Shown here: positions 3,619 through 61,800 of the stretch, in pieces | Numbering within the stretch: the first letter of the stretch is position 1 | Layout of the letters: each line of letters opens with the position of its first letter | Assembly (NCBI GenBank): GCA_017515635.1 | Contig: JAFWFO010000035.1 | Location: 1-64,000, forward strand | Origin: Selenomonadaceae bacterium | GTDB taxonomy: Bacteria > Bacillota > Negativicutes > Selenomonadales > Selenomonadaceae | Direction of reading: 5' to 3' | Length of the DNA stretch: 64,000 bases | The notes under the pieces: model-generated | What the model saw: only the letters and a program-made list of their open reading frames with translations | What the model was told of the DNA's origin: nothing | Database searches by the model: none | Program-made: the position numbers and the translations under genes

Positions 3619-5028
3619 TTGGACAACAACGAAAACCCGAAGCCTAAGACAAGTATTTTTTCGGTGATTCTCCTGATTGTGTGCTTTATCGGTGCAGCTG
3701 TCGCGGGTGCAATGTTCGCCGAATCCAGCCTGTTCGACGGCAAAGAACCGTCTCGCAGAGTCACCGGCGGCAAGGACGAAAAAACCGAGGAACTTATAAA
3801 AGCTCGCGACAAAGCGACGATTTTAATTATGGGCGTGGACAAGCGCGAAGATGATGTCGGGCGTTCCGATACAATGATGATTGCGACGGTTGACCCGCGA
3901 CTTGATCAGGCAACTTTGTTGTCCGTGCCCCGTGATACACGCGTAAAAATTTTCGGACACGGCTACGACAAAATCAACGCGGCTTTTGCTTACGGCGGAG
4001 TTGAATTGGCGGAAGAGACAGTTGAACATTTTCTCGGCATTGACATTGACCATTACATCATGATTGACACAAGCAGTTTCGTTAAAATTATTGACGCGAT
4101 TGGCGGCGTGGACATTGACGTTGAAAAGCGCATGTTTTACGAAGACCCCTGGGATGACAACGGCGGTTTGGTTATCGATTTGTATCCCGGTCAACAGCAC
4201 ATGGACGGGAAAACTGCCGTGACTTACGTTCGTTATCGTGATTCGGAAGGCGACATCGGGCGTGTGAAACGTCAGCAGGCGTTTATGGCGGCGTGTTTGG
4301 ACAAAGTCACTTCGCCCGAAATTGTTCCGCGCATTCCGAAAATAATTCGTGAGATAATTGACGCCGTTGAAACGGATATGTCGTTGCGTCAACTTTTGGA
4401 AGTTGCGGGCGCGTTAAAAGCAGCTCAACAAAACGGACTTGAAACGGATATGGTGCCCGGCTATCCGCTTTATATCGACGATATAAGTTATTGGATACCT
4501 GACGTGGAACTTTTGCGGCTGTCCGTTGCCGACGCGTTGGGAATTTCCGTTGACCCGATGCTTCGCGAACGTTTCGAGCGTGCGGCGCGTGAATACAACG
4601 ATTCAATTCCCGACGACGCTAAAGATGTTCCCGACGGCGAAGATTATATCGGGCGTCCTTCACGCGAAAACCGCGACCGTCGCCGTATTGAAGACCGCAC
4701 GACCGTCACCGAACGCAGAACTTATGACGACGAGCGCACAACTTCCGACGACAGACGAACTTACGATAACGAGCGCACGCGTTCCGACGACAGGCGAACT
4801 TACGACACCGAGCGCACGCGTTCCGACGACAGGCGAACTTACGACACCGAGCGCACGCGTTCCGACGACAGGCGAACTTACGACGACGAGCGTACACGTA
4901 CTGACGACAGGCGAACTTACGACAGCGACCGTAGAACTTACGAGACTCCGCAAATTGAGCGGCGCGACGTTCCCGACACGAGCTTTACCGAGCCTAGCCG
5001 TGACGACGCGTCGAAAACGAGGTATTGA
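3619..5028 (+). CDS. LytR-CpsA-Psr (LCP) family protein with Arg/Asp repeat tail
   Basis: LCP proteins transfer undecaprenyl-linked polymers to peptidoglycan at the outer face of the membrane. A membrane anchor (about residues 12-35, SVILLIVCFIGAAVAGAMF) precedes the LCP domain with ILIMGVDKREDDVGRSD, SVPRDTRV, GYDKINAAFAYGG and YVRYRDSEGDIGRVKRQQ. Unusually, the last 110 or so residues are about six copies of a 12-residue unit, DDRRTYDNERTR-like. The start is the TTG at 3619, 7-8 bases after GGAGGTG; 469 residues. A paralogue without this tail is at 16407-17495. The next gene begins 3 bases downstream. Confidence 0.88.
   Translation: MDNNENPKPKTSIFSVILLIVCFIGAAVAGAMFAESSLFDGKEPSRRVTGGKDEKTEELIKARDKATILIMGVDKREDDVGRSDTMMIATVDPRLDQATLLSVPRDTRVKIFGHGYDKINAAFAYGGVELAEETVEHFLGIDIDHYIMIDTSSFVKIIDAIGGVDIDVEKRMFYEDPWDDNGGLVIDLYPGQQHMDGKTAVTYVRYRDSEGDIGRVKRQQAFMAACLDKVTSPEIVPRIPKIIREIIDAVETDMSLRQLLEVAGALKAAQQNGLETDMVPGYPLYIDDISYWIPDVELLRLSVADALGISVDPMLRERFERAAREYNDSIPDDAKDVPDGEDYIGRPSRENRDRRRIEDRTTVTERRTYDDERTTSDDRRTYDNERTRSDDRRTYDTERTRSDDRRTYDTERTRSDDRRTYDDERTRTDDRRTYDSDRRTYETPQIERRDVPDTSFTEPSRDDASKTRY
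4714..4935 (+). repeat. 36-bp tandem repeats encoding the LCP tail
   Basis: About six direct repeats of a 36-base unit (core GACGACAGGCGAACTTACGA) lie in frame within the LCP gene. They encode the DDRRTYD-x-ERTRS units. Several adjacent units are nearly identical in DNA, so copy number could change by slippage or unequal exchange. Confidence 0.85.
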
Positions 5029-9028: not shown

Positions 9029-9913
9029 TTTTTGGCGATTGACGTTGGCGGCACGTTTACAAAATTTGCCGTAATGAGCGGCGTACGTTCTTTCAAGATT
9101 ACGAAACAGGACAAAATTTCGACGCCGAAAAAAAGTCACGAACAATTTCTTGACGCGCTTGCCGACATTTATAACACTTATGACGACGTGGAAGGCATTG
9201 CGCTTTCGTCGACGGGCATTATCGATTCGGTTCGCGGAATTTGTCTGATGAGCAACAACCTGCCGTTTTTAAGCGGGCATTGTATTGCCGAGGAACTTCA
9301 AGCGATGTGCGGCGTGCCGGTCACCGTAGAGAACGACGCGAATTGTGCCGCGCTTGCCGAAGTAAAATCGGGCTGTCTCGTCGACGTGAACAATGCTTTC
9401 GTTTTGGTTTTCGGAACGTCCGTCGGCGGCGCGTTCGTGTGCAACAAGGAAATTTATCGCGGTGCACATTTCTGCGCGGGCGAAGTCGCTATGACGCTCA
9501 AAAGCATTAATTCCGTCGTCAGCGAAAAAAATTTTTACGCGAACGATATTGGCGCGTTGGCTCTGATGAAAAGTTGCGCGAAAACTTTGGGAATGCCCCT
9601 TGACGAAGTCGCGCCGGAAATGGTTTTCGATTTAATTGACGAAAACGATGATGACATGCTCGATTGTCTGTACAAATACGCGGCGGGCGTGGCGGTAAAA
9701 ATTTTTAATCTGCAGATGTTGTTTGACCCTGAACGAATTGCGATTGGCGGCGGCGTGAGTTCGCGACAAAGTTTTATCGACGCGATTCAAGATAAAGTCG
9801 ATGAGCTTTACGAAAAAATTCCCGCTGAAATTCCGCGCCCCGAAATTGTTCCGTGCAAAATCGGCAACGATGCAAATTTATTCGGCGCACTCTATCGGCA
9901 CTTGAAAAAGTAA
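9020..9913 (+). CDS. ROK family sugar kinase
   Basis: A 297-residue cytoplasmic sugar kinase. FLAIDVGGTFTKFAV is the ROK phosphate-1 loop, VTVENDANCAALAE contains the catalytic aspartate motif, and VLVFGTSVGGAFV the phosphate-2 region, with AIGGGVSSR late in the chain. The zinc-binding cysteine cluster (CxCGxxGC) usual in many ROK proteins is absent; RGAHFCAGEV stands at the expected place. Many hexokinase-type ROK members also lack it. The substrate may be glucose, an amino sugar or a mannose derivative. GTG start preceded by GGGGAGG; expression probably from the promoter at 8959. Confidence 0.88.
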   Translation: MKKFLAIDVGGTFTKFAVMSGVRSFKITKQDKISTPKKSHEQFLDALADIYNTYDDVEGIALSSTGIIDSVRGICLMSNNLPFLSGHCIAEELQAMCGVPVTVENDANCAALAEVKSGCLVDVNNAFVLVFGTSVGGAFVCNKEIYRGAHFCAGEVAMTLKSINSVVSEKNFYANDIGALALMKSCAKTLGMPLDEVAPEMVFDLIDENDDDMLDCLYKYAAGVAVKIFNLQMLFDPERIAIGGGVSSRQSFIDAIQDKVDELYEKIPAEIPRPEIVPCKIGNDANLFGALYRHLKK

Positions 9914-9975
9914 TTTGAGCTTTGAGCTTTAAGCTTTGAGCTTTAAGCTTTGAGCTTTAAGCTTTGAGCTTATAG
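9914..9975 (+). repeat. Tandem AGCTTTGAGCTTTA repeats
   Basis: About four direct copies of a 14-base unit (TTTGAGCTTTAAGC register) lie between the ROK gene and metN. A relative of the same family occurs at 29934-30009. The units are rich in AGCTT and could form imperfect hairpins. No coding function is apparent. Confidence 0.85.
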
Positions 9976-10034
9976 GGTTTTTTGCTATCAGCTATCCACT
10001 ATAAGCTATCCAGTCACTTACAAAGGAGTAACCA

Positions 10035-19852: not shown

Positions 19853-19915
19853 TTGTGCGCGGACAATTTCGGCAATGAGATTATTACCAAACTGTTCCCC
19901 CGCTTTTAAAGCGGG
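19853..19915 (+). repeat. Palindrome-bearing spacer between duplicated gene ends (locus 2)
   Basis: Ends AACTGTTCCCC then CGCTTTTAAAGCG and GG, identical over about 25 bases to the spacer at 2087-2113 and in the same orientation relative to the upstream gene. Confidence 0.75.
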
Positions 19916-29933: not shown

Positions 29934-30009
29934 GTTAAGCTTTAAGCTTAGAGCTTTAAGCTTTAAGGAAATTTTTCGTCACACCTTAAAGCTCAAAGCT
30001 TACAGCTTG
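29934..30009 (-). repeat. AAGCTTTAAGCT repeat cluster overlapping the wecG-type gene end
   Basis: A run of AAGCTTT/AGCTTTA units in both orientations, related to the tandem array at 9914-9975. The right end forms the last codons of the WecG/TagA gene (encoding ASSCKL), so the repeat has replaced or extended that gene's 3' end. Confidence 0.75.
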
Positions 30010-30736
30010 AAGCTTTCTTTTGTTGATGAACTTTCAAAACGAATTTCGGCAAGGCGACCAATCGACCTGCGCGGGAAGGTTGCAACATTGCTCGGAAAAG
30101 CCACTCGAGTTTCGCCCGTTGCATCCAAAGCGGTGCACGCTTGACGACGCCCGCCATTACGTCAAATGTTCCGCCCACGCCGATTGATACGGGAATTTGT
30201 AATTCGTCGCGGAATTTCGCAAGCCATTTTTCTTGTTTAGGGACGCCCAACGCCGCAAGCAAAATATCTGCGCGGGAAGATTTTATTTGCGAAATAATTT
30301 CCGGCTCGTCGTCTGCGGTGAAATAACCGTTGCGCGTACCGACAATTTTTATGCCGGGGTAAAGTTCTTCGGCTTTGGCTTTGGCTTTGTCGGCGATATT
30401 CGGCGCGGAACCGAACAGAAAAAATTTCCAACCTTTGACGGGCGAAATTTTCATCAGCTCTTGCACCAGATCAAAGCCCGCGACGCGTTCGGGCATTTCT
30501 TTGCCGAGATGTCTCGCCGCCCAAACTGTTCCCGCACCGTCCGGCACGACCAAACTTGCCGCGTTCAAAATATTTTTCAATTCGTCGTCGTGTGTCGCCC
30601 TCAAAAGCATTTCAGCATTCGCAGTCGCCACGATTGACGATTTTTTTTCGGCGATTAAATTTGCCACGCGTTCAACGGCTTGAGCCATCGTCACCGCGTC
30701 GACCTTCACGCCCAAAATTTCCACTTGTTCACTCAT
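29993..30736 (-). CDS. WecG/TagA/CpsF family glycosyltransferase
   Basis: A 247-residue family GT26 enzyme that typically adds N-acetylmannosamine or a related sugar to a lipid-linked acceptor. Motifs: ATANAEMLLRA, VVPDGAGTVWAAR (the catalytic Asp/Thr region), FFLFGSAPNIADKA, LLAALGVPKQEKWL and SIGVGGTFDVMAGVVKRAP. The ATG at 30736 has GGAG 8 bases upstream. The last residues ASSCKL come from an AAGCTT-type repeat. Immediately upstream lies a second copy of the gene's 5' end. It ends about 65 bases before psd. Confidence 0.9.
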   Translation of the reverse strand: MSEQVEILGVKVDAVTMAQAVERVANLIAEKKSSIVATANAEMLLRATHDDELKNILNAASLVVPDGAGTVWAARHLGKEMPERVAGFDLVQELMKISPVKGWKFFLFGSAPNIADKAKAKAEELYPGIKIVGTRNGYFTADDEPEIISQIKSSRADILLAALGVPKQEKWLAKFRDELQIPVSIGVGGTFDVMAGVVKRAPLWMQRAKLEWLFRAMLQPSRAGRLVALPKFVLKVHQQKKASSCKL

Positions 30737-39125: not shown

Positions 39126-40259
39126 ATGACGAGCATTGTAAACGGGCGATTGATTTTACCCGACGACGACGGAAATTTTAAAATCTGCGAAGGAAAAGTT
39201 TTGAACTTCGACGAGAAAATTTTTTCGATAAGCGATTCGGTCGACGGCGAAATTTTCGACGCGGAAAATGATTTCGTTGCGCCCGGATTTATCAACGTGC
39301 ACATTCACGGCTGCGCGGGAGCCGACACAATGGACGACGATTTAAACGCGTTGAAAACCATGCGCGAATTTTTACCGACTTCAGGCGTCACAAGTTTTTT
39401 GCCGACGACTATGACAATGCCGCTTGAAAAAATTTCCGCCGCACTCGAAAGAATTCGTCGCGAACAGAAAATTTCTCACGGGGCAAAAATTATCGGCGCA
39501 CATCTCGAAGGTCCTTTTATCAGCAAAAAATTCAAAGGCGCGCAGGCTGAAGAAAACATTATCCCAGCCGATTTCGCGTTCGTCGAAAAATTTGCGGACG
39601 TGATTAAAATCGTCACCGTCGCGCCCGAAGAAATTTCGTTCGACTTTATTGATCGTTGTCGCAAAAAAAATATCGTCGTGTCAATCGGGCACAGCGCGGC
39701 GACTTACGAAATTGCACGGGCGGCGATTGAGCGCGGAGCCAAACACATCACGCACCTTTTCAACGCTCAAAGTCCGTTGCACCACAGAAAACCCGGCGTT
39801 GTCGGGGCGGCTCTCGATTCGGACGCGGTGGTTGAAATTATCGCCGACAATGTTCACGTTCACCCCGTCGCTCAACGGCTTGCAAAAAAAATTAAGCCGC
39901 GCAGTCAAATCGTTTTGATAACGGATTCGATGCGGGCTTGCGGTTTCGGTGACGGAATCAGCGAACTCGGCGGTCAAAAAGTTTTCGTCAACGGAAATTT
40001 TGCCACTTTGGCGGACGGGACACTTGTCGGCTCCGTCGCCACGTTAAATAATGTGCTGAAAAATTTCTGCGCGAACACGGGGCTTGACGTTGCGTCGGGC
40101 GTCGAACTCGTGACGAAAAATCCCGCCGTTGAGCTGAAAATTTTTGACAGTTTCGGAAGTCTCGAAGTCGGGAAATCTGCCGACATTACAATTTTCGACG
40201 ACGATTTTAACGTCAAAGAAACTTTTATCGACGGCGCAAAATACGTGACGCAACAGTAA
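39126..40259 (+). CDS. nagA: N-acetylglucosamine-6-phosphate deacetylase
   Basis: A 377-residue amidohydrolase that removes the acetyl group from GlcNAc-6-P, feeding amino sugars into glycolysis or reuse by GlmS products. Motifs: APGFINVHIHG (metal His), GAHLEGPF (metal Glu), VSIGHSAA, THLFNAQSPLHHRKPGVVGA and ITDSMRACGFGDG (catalytic Asp). Start ATG after GGAGGG. No nagB is in the window. The gene stop is followed within a few bases by the composite hairpin repeat. Confidence 0.95.
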   Translation: MTSIVNGRLILPDDDGNFKICEGKVLNFDEKIFSISDSVDGEIFDAENDFVAPGFINVHIHGCAGADTMDDDLNALKTMREFLPTSGVTSFLPTTMTMPLEKISAALERIRREQKISHGAKIIGAHLEGPFISKKFKGAQAEENIIPADFAFVEKFADVIKIVTVAPEEISFDFIDRCRKKNIVVSIGHSAATYEIARAAIERGAKHITHLFNAQSPLHHRKPGVVGAALDSDAVVEIIADNVHVHPVAQRLAKKIKPRSQIVLITDSMRACGFGDGISELGGQKVFVNGNFATLADGTLVGSVATLNNVLKNFCANTGLDVASGVELVTKNPAVELKIFDSFGSLEVGKSADITIFDDDFNVKETFIDGAKYVTQQ

Positions 40260-40263
40260 TTCC

Positions 40264-40369
40264 GGCCGTCATGGATGACGGCCGCTCCGCCTGTCGCATT
40301 TCGCGTGACGCGAAATACCGCAGGCGCAGTTTTCTTTGGTTACTTTCTTTTGCTGCCAAAAGAAAGTAA
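40264..40369 (+). repeat. Three-hairpin intergenic element, copy A
   Basis: Hairpin 1: GGCCGTCAT/ATGACGGCC. Hairpin 2: outer stem CGCCTG/CAGGCG around inner GCATTTCGCGTGACGCGAAAT. Hairpin 3: TTACTTTCTTTTG/CAAAAGAAAGTAA. The same three hairpins, in the same order, occur on the minus strand at 55150-55318 with different stem bases that keep pairing. It lies tail-to-tail between nagA and rsmB and could also act as a terminator. Confidence 0.8.
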
Positions 40370-40372
40370 CAT

Positions 40373-41656
40373 TCAACGACGAATCAATTTCGCGGCAAAA
40401 AATCCGTCAGTATTCGTGACGTGCGGCAGGAAAATTTTCGTCTCGACAAGTTCAAAGTCTTTATGCGTCGACAAAAAATTTTCGACGACCGATTGATTTT
40501 CGCGCTTTAAAATCGTGCACGTTGAATAAACCAAAGTGCCGCCGTGCTTGAGAGTTTCCGCCGCGCTTGACAAAATTTCACCCTGCAACGTCGGCAACGC
40601 GTCAATGTCGGCAATATTTTTCCAGCGCATGTCGGCTTTTCGACGAAGCACGCCCAAGCCCGAACACGGCGCGTCAACCAAAACTTTATCGGCCTGCGCG
40701 GGAAATTTTTTGCCGAGTTCGCGAGCGTCAATCAAAAGCGGTTCGATAATTTTTATTCCGAGACGTTCGGCATTTTGCTTGATGTGTTCGATTTTCGTTT
40801 CGTAAATGTCCGCCGCGACGATTCGCCCGCGATTTTGCATAAGTTCCGCCATGTGCGTGGATTTGCCGCCCGGTGCCGCGCAACAATCGATGACGAATTC
40901 GCCCGCCTGCGGATTCAAAAATCTTGCCGCCGACATTGAGCTTTCGTCCTGAACTTGACAAAGCCCGTCGCGCAGCGGTCGAAATTTATCAAGTGCGCCG
41001 TGTCCGCGACAAATTATACCTTCGGGCGCGAAAGTTGACGGTTCGGCTTGAACGTCGAATTTTTTCAGTGCGTCCAAAATTTTTTCTCGCGTCGTCCGCA
41101 AAAAGTTCACGCGTAAACAAAGCGGCGGGTCTGTGTTGTCGAAGTCCAAAAGTTTTTTCGTCGCGTCAAGCCCGAATTCTTCGACGAAAATTTTCACGAG
41201 CGGCGCGGGGTGAAAACTTCTTAACGCCAGCGATTCAACGTCGTCGCCCGTCGGGAAATCTGATTTTGTCGGTTCGCGAACGGCCGAGCGCAAAACTCCG
41301 TTGACGAATTTCGCCGCGCTTTGTGAACAAAATTTTTTCGCCAGCTCCGTCGATTCGTTGACCGCCGCTGAATTCGGCACGCGGTCGAGGAAAAAAATTT
41401 GATACATGCCGACACGCAACACCGCCAAAACTTTTGCGTCGATTTTTTTCAGCGGGCGATTCAGGTATTTTGAAATTTTCCAATCGAGTGACGCGCCGGC
41501 TTTAACTGTGCCGTAAACCAGCTCCGTGCAAAATTTTCTGTCGCGGTCGTCGAATTTTTCTTGCCGCAAAGTTTGTGCCAAAACGACATTAGCCCACGCG
41601 CCTTTTGTTGCGACTTCGTGGACAATTTTTGTTGCCGCCAATCTGATTTTATCCAA
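40373..41656 (-). CDS. rsmB: 16S rRNA (cytosine-967-C5)-methyltransferase
   Basis: A 427-residue enzyme with an N-terminal NusB-like RNA-binding domain (residues 1-140) and a C-terminal SAM methyltransferase domain. Motifs: VIDCCAAPGGKSTHMAEL (SAM loop), VLVDAPCSGLG (catalytic region) and YSTCTI (second cysteine). Initiation is a TTG at 41656 after AGGAGG. The 3' end runs into hairpin 3 of the composite repeat. The NeuD-like gene is 10 bases upstream, suggesting cotranscription. Confidence 0.94.
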   Translation of the reverse strand: MDKIRLAATKIVHEVATKGAWANVVLAQTLRQEKFDDRDRKFCTELVYGTVKAGASLDWKISKYLNRPLKKIDAKVLAVLRVGMYQIFFLDRVPNSAAVNESTELAKKFCSQSAAKFVNGVLRSAVREPTKSDFPTGDDVESLALRSFHPAPLVKIFVEEFGLDATKKLLDFDNTDPPLCLRVNFLRTTREKILDALKKFDVQAEPSTFAPEGIICRGHGALDKFRPLRDGLCQVQDESSMSAARFLNPQAGEFVIDCCAAPGGKSTHMAELMQNRGRIVAADIYETKIEHIKQNAERLGIKIIEPLLIDARELGKKFPAQADKVLVDAPCSGLGVLRRKADMRWKNIADIDALPTLQGEILSSAAETLKHGGTLVYSTCTILKRENQSVVENFLSTHKDFELVETKIFLPHVTNTDGFFAAKLIRR

Positions 41657-44227: not shown

Positions 44228-44575
44228 GGGAGTGAAATAGGATCGACGGGGATGAACGGGGTTAAATAAGCAAGCATCGGCTCCGCAACCGATTGACAAG
44301 CGGAAAACTTTTTATAACTGCGAACGAAGAGTACGCACTCGCGGCTTAAGCCGCGCCCTTGCTTGACCGATTCCGCCTGTCAGGTCGAGGTCAAGGGTCA
44401 ATAACAGGCTACCGCGTTTGAGCGCACTGTAGAGCGCGGGAAATTCCAAAGTGCCGGGCTTTGCAGAGGTTGTTGTTGAACTTTGCAGAGTCGAGATTAA
44501 TCAGCAACTGAGCTTGGAGAAAATTTTTCGTCTTCATTTTCGGACGGGGAGGGCGGTACTCCCCCACTTCCACCA
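44228..44575 (+). ncRNA. ssrA: Transfer-messenger RNA (tmRNA)
   Basis: tmRNA rescues stalled ribosomes and tags the nascent peptide. The 5' end GGGAGTG pairs with CACTTCC before ACCA at the 3' end, and GGATCGACGGGGATG is the conserved 5' block. The tag frame starts at 44320 and reads ANEEYALAA then TAA, ending in the typical ALAA. About 348 bases, normal for the molecule. The arm that should be the T-arm (GGGGA...TCCCC) has the loop GGGCGGTAC instead of the usual TTCGA pattern, which is odd. A terminator follows. Confidence 0.93.
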
Positions 44576-55053: not shown

Positions 55054-55149
55054 CCTGCAGTTGAAAAAAATATTTCGACAATTTTAGCGGAGGTTGACGG
55101 TTTTGGCGCGTCGCTTCGATTAATTTCGTTCGTGAATTTGAGTTTTAAT

Positions 55150-55318
55150 CTACTTTTTCTTTGCTTGCCCAAAGAAAAAGTAGCAAAAAGAAAAGGCACG
55201 CCTGCGCGGCGGGCGATGAATGAGTATTCGCGTTGAAATTGGGTTGTCGTAATGCTTTTTGGCCGACGGTATTTGCGTCACGCAAATGCGTCGGCAGAGG
55301 CCGTCATCCGTGACGGCC
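55150..55318 (-). repeat. Three-hairpin intergenic element, copy B
   Basis: On the minus strand, hairpin 1 GGCCGTCACGGATGACGGCC, hairpin 2 with outer stem GCCGAC/GTCGGC around GCATTTGCGTGACGCAAAT, then a longer spacer and hairpin 3 CTACTTTTTCTTTG/CAAAGAAAAAGTAG. Compared with copy A, the outer stem of hairpin 2 and the stem of hairpin 3 differ in sequence but stay complementary. The element fills much of the 54957-55419 interval; no gene is seen there. Confidence 0.8.
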
Positions 55319-55419
55319 TCAAAATTCGATTTCGGATTATGTTATCTTAAAAATTTTTCGCGGCAGGAACTTTCCAAACTCAACCAGAATTAATCAAAAA
55401 AAATTTGGGAGGTTATATT

Positions 55420-61227: not shown

Positions 61228-61250
61228 AAAAAAAGCCCCCGGAAAGGGGG
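61228..61250. promoter_or_regulatory. Hairpin over the toxin ribosome binding site / antisense terminator, module 1
   Basis: GCCCCCGGAAAGGGGG: on the plus strand the GGGGG, which is the ribosome binding site of the small peptide, pairs with CCCCC. On the minus strand the same hairpin is followed by CTTTTTTT, a rho-independent terminator for the antisense RNA. Confidence 0.7.
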
Positions 61251-61258
61251 TGAAGCGG

Positions 61259-61333
61259 ATGTTCACGATTATCTTCCGAATCATCGTCATAACCCTGATA
61301 ATCCTCTGGATATTCACAGGAACGGCCGCCTAA
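61259..61333 (+). CDS. 24-residue hydrophobic peptide, module 1 (type I toxin-like)
   Basis: ATG at 61259, stop TAA at 61331. The peptide begins MFTIIFRIIV and ends TGTAA, with one central hydrophobic span rich in Ile, consistent with a membrane-inserting toxin. GGGGGTG lies 6 bases before the ATG and is inside a hairpin. The transcript has its own promoter and terminator, and a convergent antisense promoter lies at 61450. The second module encodes a related peptide. No family is recognised; the type I toxin call rests on architecture. Confidence 0.7.
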   Translation: MFTIIFRIIVITLIILWIFTGTAA

Positions 61334-61449
61334 GCTTCCCGGCGAATAGCGGCTTACCTTTTGTAACTCACTTACAGACGAGGGGCTGAACCGCCTTCAA
61401 GCACTTCGCCTCGCACGGACGCGGGGCATTTTTGTTTTGTTGTGACGAA

Positions 61450-61478
61450 ATTATAATCTGCGCGGGAAATTTTTGCAA
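61450..61478 (-). promoter_or_regulatory. Antisense RNA promoter, module 1
   Basis: Minus strand TTGCAA, 17 bases, TATAAT. Repeated exactly at 61801-61829. Confidence 0.7.
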
Positions 61479-61502
61479 GCTGTAAAAAAAATGAACGCCG
61501 CC

Positions 61503-61531
61503 TTGAATTCGGTCGACACATGATTTATAAT
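61503..61531 (+). promoter_or_regulatory. Promoter of toxin-like mRNA, module 2
   Basis: TTGAAT, 17 bases, TATAAT, as in module 1. Confidence 0.75.
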
Positions 61532-61578
61532 TCGTGTTGCTTGATGCCTTCGCGGCAAAAGGCGGTTTTAATCGGAAA

Positions 61579-61595
61579 CCCCCCGAGAAAGGGGG
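61579..61595. promoter_or_regulatory. Hairpin over the toxin ribosome binding site, module 2
   Basis: CCCCCCGAGAAAGGGGG. The pairing is kept although the loop changed. On the minus strand it is followed only by GTTTCC, so antisense termination here may be weaker than in module 1. Confidence 0.65.
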
Positions 61596-61603
61596 TGACG
61601 CTG

Positions 61604-61678
61604 ATGTTTACGATTATAGTACGCGTGGTGATTATCACCGTTGTAATCCTCTTAATTCTCAGCAAAACAGCCGCCTGA
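61604..61678 (+). CDS. 24-residue hydrophobic peptide, module 2 (type I toxin-like)
   Basis: ATG at 61604, TGA at 61676. Begins MFTIIVRVVI and ends SKTAA. It keeps MFTII, an Arg at position 7, the Ile/Val/Leu span and the TAA end of the module 1 peptide, while many codons differ. Conservation at protein level with changed DNA supports a translated gene. GGGGGTG lies 7 bases upstream. Confidence 0.7.
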   Translation: MFTIIVRVVIITVVILLILSKTAA

Positions 61679-61800
61679 GCTCCCAACTCATGCGACTGTT
61701 TAAACCTTGTTTGATTTTGTTAATTTCGTATAGATGAGGGGCAAAACCGCCTTCAAGCACTTCGCCTCGCAAGGACGCGGGGCATTTTTGTTGTGACGAA

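Follow-up and report, generated by a model that had tools for sequence, protein, structure and literature searches.

What keeps three hairpins in the same order at two places in one genome when the bases of their stems differ? We addressed this question in a window of 64,000 nt from a Selenomonadaceae bacterium (contig JAFWFO010000035.1, positions 1 to 64,000), which is the whole stretch of DNA analysed here. The genes nagA (39126-40259, plus strand) and rsmB (40373-41656, minus strand) converge, and copy A of the element (40264-40370, plus strand) occupies their 113-nt gap. Copy B (55107-55320, minus strand) lies between divergent neighbors, fba (54956, minus strand) and an exonuclease-like ORF (55405, plus strand); the names nagA, rsmB, and fba are our reading of the ORFs.

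The first-pass annotation described hairpins HP1, HP2, and HP3 in that order at both loci, with altered but still paired bases in HP3 and in the outer stem of HP2 around a retained GCGTGACGC, and took this as selection for structure. These descriptions proved correct. HP1 (GGCCGTCAYGGATGACGGCC) comes first in each copy, and the outer stem of HP2 is GCCTG/CAGGC in A and GCCGACG/CGTCGGC in B, enclosing GCGTGACGC in both. As RNA, copy A folded at -56 kcal/mol (z -7.3) and copy B at -69 kcal/mol (z -7.2), far below their shuffles (equalled by 0 of 200 in each case); folded as DNA, copy A had a z of -9.7. The short form, represented by copy A, consists of the three hairpins alone. The long form, represented by copy B, has approximately 62 nt separating HP2 from HP3 plus a 3' tail, and the 43 nt after HP3 of B recur in other copies (Table 1).

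Table 1. Parts of copies A and B, in positions of the window
Feature	Position	Strand	Remark
Copy A HP1, hairpin with TGGA loop	40264-40283	+	almost every family copy has an NGGA loop here
Copy A HP2, outer stem GCCTG/CAGGC, inner stem around GCGTGACGC	40289-40325	+	
Copy A S1 5' strand GCAG, partner loop CTGC	40326-40329	+	GCGG/CCGC at the orthologous site of G020
Copy A third strand TTTTCTTTG (T4CT3)	40330-40338	+	mirrors HP3 5' arm (T3CT4)
Copy A HP3 (S2) 5' arm GTTACTTTCTTTTG	40339-40352	+	
Copy A HP3 loop CTGC	40353-40356	+	S1 3' strand
Copy A HP3 (S2) 3' purine arm CAAAAGAAAGTAAC	40357-40370	+	
Copy B HP1, hairpin with CGGA loop	55297-55320	-	
Copy B HP2	55262-55295	-	
Copy B spacer	55200-55261	-	long form only; GC-rich hairpin at 55199-55215
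Copy B S1 5' strand TGCC, partner loop GGCA	55195-55198	-	
Copy B third strand TTTTCTTTTTG	55184-55194	-	
Copy B HP3 (S2) 5' arm CTACTTTTTCTTTG	55170-55183	-	
Copy B HP3 loop GGCAAG	55164-55169	-	S1 3' strand is GGCA (55166-55169)
Copy B HP3 (S2) 3' purine arm CAAAGAAAAAGTAG	55150-55163	-	
Copy B 3' tail	55107-55149	-	common to other long-form copies

The first-pass annotation had proposed a covariance-model search of the genome, and held that a lack of further copies or the presence of variants with broken pairing would speak against the element. Neither was seen: BLAST of the same genome gave 17 matching places with copy A as query and 26 with copy B. The covariance-model search returned 32 rows, which we read as about 24 distinct places after removal of opposite-strand readings (one, C19, is weak). 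Copies A and B are thus members of one repeat scattered between the genes of this gut bacterium. The element was found in 16 of 25 genomes of the same genus and, patchily, in 5 of 149 genomes of the phylum, its own included. Rfam gave no match on the element at gathering score in the window or in 11 proteobacterial loci, and phages gave no match to copy B. The open-access literature, searched for the sequence or fold, yielded no paper naming the motif. The window also holds a tmRNA gene at 44228-44575 (Rfam RF00023, 120.6 bits).

The window contains other repeats as well. A second dispersed hairpin, CCCGCTTTAAAAGCGGGGGAACAGTT, is present as exact inverted copies at 2088-2113 and 19890-19915, 17.8 kb apart, with a close copy in the nagA-rsmB gap of the related genome G020 (locus L266, near 2780). 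At 9908-9982 and 29935-30019 the 14-nt unit TTGAGCTTTAAGCT is repeated in tandem, and the two arrays are in part inverted with respect to one another. A 39-bp tandem array at 4693-4965, made of five overlapping copies of a 117-nt reference, is probably a coding repeat.

What the first-pass annotation overlooked, together with the NGGA loops of the preceding hairpins, is the main feature of the element: HP3 is part of a larger fold, in all probability a triple-helix pseudoknot. A T-rich strand just 5' of HP3 mirrors that hairpin's 5' arm, the relation that a third strand in parallel orientation requires. Where the 5' arm reads T(p)CT(q), the third strand reads T(a)CT(b), with b equal to p and a equal to or greater than q. 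Indeed, b equalled p in 113 of 114 Selenomonadaceae copies. A direct repeat was rejected, as it fits none of the 94 Selenomonadaceae copies with unequal runs, of which the mirror fits 93. The mirror was better in 122 cases and the direct repeat in none, with three antisense readings set aside. In some relatives (loci L073-L075) the 3' flank of HP3 reads GTAGAAGAAAAAA, by which the opposite strand gains a second T-rich tract that mimics the third strand; this accounts for the three false direct readings. Since neither duplication nor palindrome repair yields mirror repeats, we infer selection for a triple helix.

To avoid selecting for the third strand, we scanned a genome collection with a pattern that named just the two arms of HP3. 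This gave at least 133 places in at least 120 loci. By the titles of the 80 loci listed, these belong to Xanthomonadales, Burkholderiales, Pseudomonadales, Methylomonas, Aeromonas, Pasteurella, Desulfobacterota, Bacteroidota, Clostridia, and Selenomonadaceae. Among the matches listed, a third strand was present at 124 of 133 places, always on one side only, and a contig end cuts four of the nine places without one. A fixed-register alignment retained 61 of 73 rows, the 12 out-of-register rows being dropped. Across its eight triples, T.T-A changes to C.C-G at three positions and C.C-G to T.T-A at a fourth, with a single broken triple (CTA) in the 61 rows. At the three variable positions tested, third strand and purine arm agreed in 183 of 183 cells, 14 of which had changed on both sides (1.2 in shuffles).

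The loop of HP3 in turn pairs with the bases immediately 5' of the third strand, forming a stem that we call S1. Its variants include TGCC/GGCA, TGTC/GACA, TGGC/GCCA, TCGC/GCGA, AGCCG/CGGCT, GTACG/CGTAC, and GCACC/GGTGC. Four or more S1 pairs were present in 61 of 134 elements, a set that includes some chance and antisense readings, which lower the score (1000 loop shuffles: mean 9.8, maximum 19). Among 60 distinct Selenomonadaceae combinations the count was 35 (2000 shuffles: mean 7.7, maximum 17). When S1 and the HP3 stem (S2) were taken together over 61 ungapped rows (alignment A3), 97.9% of cells were paired. Change on both sides was seen in 157 cells against a shuffled mean of 46.8, and covariation was 0.406 against 0.116; as aligned rows share ancestry, shuffle figures such as these are not probabilities. 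Sliding the partners destroyed the signal. S1 alone was paired in 92.6% of cells, and all four of its pairs show both-side change. A subset of copies with a CGC loop has no S1.

Together, these patterns argue strongly for an H-type pseudoknot with a U.A-U/C.G-C triple helix of about 8-9 triples, its loop pairing 5' of the third strand. Within this model the pyrimidine strand very probably occupies the S2 major groove and runs parallel to the purine 3' arm. The strands of the knot change together in distantly related bacteria, which indicates that the shape has been kept by evolution. Selection for structure is therefore borne out more strongly than first proposed, through three-way covariation of the triple helix and through the pairing of the pseudoknot.

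The hairpins 5' of the knot carry a second shared feature. Of 109 Selenomonadaceae copies, nearly all have an NGGA loop in HP1, and the HP2 loop is GGA in 43 of 85 and UGA in 42 of 85, with copies A and B both in the UGA group. NGGA hairpins stand at a fixed spacing 5' of the knot in gammaproteobacteria and Selenomonadaceae. Among the matches listed for the scanned taxa, 71 hairpins lay within 230 nt on the 5' side of the knot, 43 with NGGA and 3 with its complement, compared with NGGA in 5 of 51 hairpins 3' of the knot and in 6 of 61 background hairpins. Where NGGA loops were paired in these taxa (again among the matches listed), 29 of 34 cases had a separation of 26-29 nt, and among 85 Selenomonadaceae copies the HP1 and HP2 loops were separated by 28-32 nt in 81. 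CsrA-binding RNAs carry GGA in a hairpin loop, a property present here, with UGA in HP2 of A and B. Two of the NGGA sites read GATACAAGGATGTATC and GACATGGATGTC, and the former contains the CsrA SELEX consensus RUACARGGAUGU.

The distribution of csrA parallels that of these hairpins. In a sample of 25 loci (24 genomes), picked with the NGGA state already known, csrA was present in 11 of 11 genomes with NGGA hairpins and 1 of 13 without (p = 1e-5, ignoring phylogeny); because csrA follows lineage, part of this association is phylogeny. Counting the weak 5-bp hairpin of locus L104 as NGGA changes the table from 11/0/1/12 (p = 1e-5) to 11/1/1/11 (p = 1e-4). The one genome with csrA and no NGGA hairpins is that of Pasteurella testudinis. 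In the genus of the window, csrA was found in 13 of 16 genomes, the remaining three being incomplete (60-84%). Three genomes (G003, G004, and G006) have csrA and no copies of the element, such that csrA does not imply the element.

The first-pass annotation listed a structured RNA, a REP/BIME-like element, and a terminator cassette as possible identities, and structured RNA remains the leading reading. The unit would be active as RNA when transcription from the preceding gene reads through. CsrA would then bind the NGGA hairpins HP1 and HP2, some 28-32 nt apart, while the knot would protect the 3' side from 3'-to-5' nucleases or stall a polymerase or helicase. Each transcribed copy may in this way act as a small CsrA decoy tied to the expression of its host gene, and the unit may also spread in genomes. 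We propose this mechanism as a whole tentatively, as plausible but short of probable. The most far-reaching version is rather unlikely, namely an undescribed cross-phylum RNA element in which a CsrA-binding NGGA hairpin pair, fixed before a triple-helix pseudoknot, occurs in tens of intergenic copies whose transcripts would serve as distributed, nuclease-resistant CsrA sponges, with lineages lacking CsrA keeping the knot and not the NGGA hairpins.

Wobble pairs gave a divided picture. At the variable S2 pair (19-48), the 61 rows held 20 U.G, 3 G.U, and no A.C, with 2 rows unpaired; among 237 relaxed hits there were 35 G.T and 2 A.C, mostly at the same position. HP1 and HP2 had 8 G.U against 42 A.C and 1744 Watson-Crick pairs, so that with almost no G.U the wobble test gives an RNA no support there. 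The U.G and G.U pairs without A.C at the variable S2 pair, along with the csrA association, point to an RNA role. Against it count the scarcity of G.U in HP1 and HP2, a weak orientation bias, back-to-back pairs, and the patchy distribution. Also counted against the proposed RNA explanation were the return link from S1 to S2 (a tight 2 nt), the location of copy B, the UGA loops in half of the Selenomonadaceae HP2 hairpins, the CGC-loop copies that lack S1, and the csrA of Pasteurella testudinis.

Counts of orientation relative to genes, as the first-pass annotation had suggested, showed that divergent gaps are avoided, a point in favor of the RNA reading. We kept 114 of 130 Selenomonadaceae copies and classed 94, leaving out 12 at contig edges and 8 overlapping ORFs. 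The gaps were convergent in 26 cases, tandem sense in 38, tandem antisense in 21, and divergent in 9. Outside Selenomonadaceae, where a home-made gene finder was used and 75 of 145 readings were classed (68 at an edge or far and 2 overlapping left out), the counts were 30, 24, 19, and 2. Convergent gaps thus exceed divergent ones by 26 to 9 and by 30 to 2. The tandem sense excess was 38 to 21 in Selenomonadaceae (p = 0.036) and 24 to 19 elsewhere (p = 0.54), for a weak pooled excess of 62 to 40 (p = 0.037). Among five stretches two were annotated, from Pasteurella and Burkholderia plasmids, and both of these copies are antisense in tandem gaps. Copy B does not conform to any 3'-UTR rule: its flanking genes diverge and it stands upstream of the fba promoter predicted at 55053-55024 (minus strand), so that it is probably in neither mRNA.

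Near the end of the window, 61230-61800 carries a small gene in two tandem copies about 345 nt apart, with a promoter-like TTGAAT/TATAAT, a ribosome site, and a GC hairpin plus T run thereafter. Read by eye, the genes encode hydrophobic peptides of about 24 aa, MFTIIFRIIVITLIILWIFTGTAA and MFTIIVRVVIITVVILLILSKTAA. The arrangement resembles that of a type I toxin-antitoxin system or of a locus for a small membrane peptide.

A close rival to the RNA reading is a palindromic element that moves at the DNA level (MITE- or REP-like), whose triple-helix pseudoknot would be an end read in single-stranded DNA by a transposase or recombinase, and whose positions would be tolerated insertions near 3' ends. 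We consider this a serious candidate, though not a probable one. The patchy distribution and the near lack of G.U in HP1 and HP2 fit it, as does the arrangement of neighboring knots in Proteobacteria. Among the matches listed, 34 of 37 neighboring pairs there stand back to back like inverted ends, with purine arms outward and 316-593 nt between them. Each half of such a pair has the polarity of the single Selenomonadaceae unit, and no such pairs were seen in Selenomonadaceae loci among the matches listed. At locus L105 (5600-6150) and other Paraburkholderia loci, the pair is enclosed in a long inverted repeat, and the outer flanks of this repeat (TTCGCGTTTCCTTGTGTTCG...) are inverted too, so that the unit of about 550 bp examined at L105 resembles a giant palindrome.

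Comparison of the two sites among relatives bears on both readings. A copy upstream of fba was present in only one (G020) of 8 genomes, with a different gene on its other side, which counts for the mobile element. Among 24 loci compared, G020 alone keeps nagA adjoining rsmB, and its gap is likewise occupied by a unit. Its HP1 is identical, while its HP2 is unrelated in sequence and still foldable. S1 shows a compensating change (GCGG/CCGC compared with GCAG/CTGC), and one S2 pair changes from T-A to C-G, which counts for the RNA reading. No clean empty site was obtained, as nagA-rsmB synteny is kept only in the occupied G020 and the gene upstream of fba varies between genomes. No target-site duplication was shown, and no linked transposase was found; Y1_Tnp is absent from the genome of the window and from 10 of 11 element-rich genomes. 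The U.G and G.U pairs without A.C in S2 and the NGGA loops that accompany csrA also speak against a purely DNA-level role. The CsrA-binding RNA and the mobile DNA element can both be true.

Less convincing is a DNA non-B structure, an intrastrand triplex that would stall replication or drive rearrangement, as proposed for TM-ECO/PIT repeats. The order Hoogsteen-pyrimidine-purine on one strand, with the third strand parallel to the purine strand, is that of a class IV intrastrand triplex in the scheme of PMC4666352, whose text ties another triplex motif to genome instability. We hold this explanation to be improbable, as it leaves the S1 loop pairing, the U.G wobbles, and the NGGA hairpins unexplained.

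An intrinsic, bidirectional terminator cassette, to which the excess in convergent gaps might point, is very unlikely. No T run follows HP3, scoring of terminator-like sites yielded none at HP3 in the two copies, copies also occupy tandem antisense and divergent gaps, and copy B is upstream of the predicted fba promoter. The REP/BIME-like identity held for dispersal, intergenic palindromic sites, and back-to-back pairs in Proteobacteria, and failed for an associated RAYT. A REP/BIME mobilised by a RAYT (TnpA-REP) was rejected as barely credible, despite the many short intergenic palindromes and alternating-orientation pairs, since the unit spans 100-240 nt with a triplex rather than the 20-40 nt of a REP and Y1_Tnp (PF01797) is absent where elements abound (none in the genome of the window; 7 of 60 genus genomes, with only a partial match in G002 among the 11 element-rich ones).

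Few natural triple helices have been proven by covariation. Here, three strands that co-vary over several phyla would provide ready-made mutants, with one strand broken or the triple restored, and repeats between bacterial genes would be seen to contain a fold like that of telomerase RNA. Should the NGGA hairpins be bound by CsrA, a global regulator would be titrated by repeats beside many genes. Even with a DNA-level role, the knot would define by its structure a repeat whose copies have little sequence in common beyond it.

Several known systems resemble parts of this element. In telomerase RNA, a pyrimidine loop lies in the S2 groove, parallel to the purine strand. Known triple-helix pseudoknots likewise have S1 on the 5' side, a pyrimidine loop in the S2 groove, and the S1 3' strand in the loop; unlike these, the present motif is a dispersed multi-copy repeat with 8-9 consecutive triples and an S1 of only 4-5 pairs. 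SAM-V, presented in PMC6061858 as a triple-helix pseudoknot riboswitch, is one of this group. REP/BIME elements are also intergenic, palindromic, multi-copy, and scarce in divergent gaps, and the inverted pairs of Proteobacteria add to the likeness. In contrast, our element has no RAYT, a larger unit, and a triplex module. Other stem-loop repeat families near 3' ends are treated by Petrillo et al. (2006; PMC1590033).

The hairpins invite comparison with CsrA/RsmA-binding RNAs and their sponges, which also have paired hairpins with ANGGA-type loops, often ACANGGAUGU. CsrB and RsmZ are such RNAs, and the binding consensus is RUACARGGAUGU. In contrast to these sponges, tens of copies are here scattered beside genes and joined to a pseudoknot, and their hairpins are candidate binding sites judged from sequence.

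The PIT/TM-ECO (BoxC) repeats resemble ours in that they are triplex motifs of a single strand and lie between bacterial genes. Class IV intrastrand triplexes, as defined by Holder et al. (2015; PMC4666352), make up 4% of the hits in that study, and the present motif fits this class (5' Hoogsteen, pyrimidine, purine). The subject of that article is TM-ECO, a G/C-rich purine-motif (class II) repeat stated to be unable to form in RNA, and the word pseudoknot is absent from its main text. Our motif differs from TM-ECO in its pyrimidine Hoogsteen strand, in the pairing of its loop, and, in some lineages, in the NGGA hairpins ahead of the knot. What emerges is a conserved repeat with a very probable triple-helix pseudoknot, for which a CsrA role is a pointed hypothesis.
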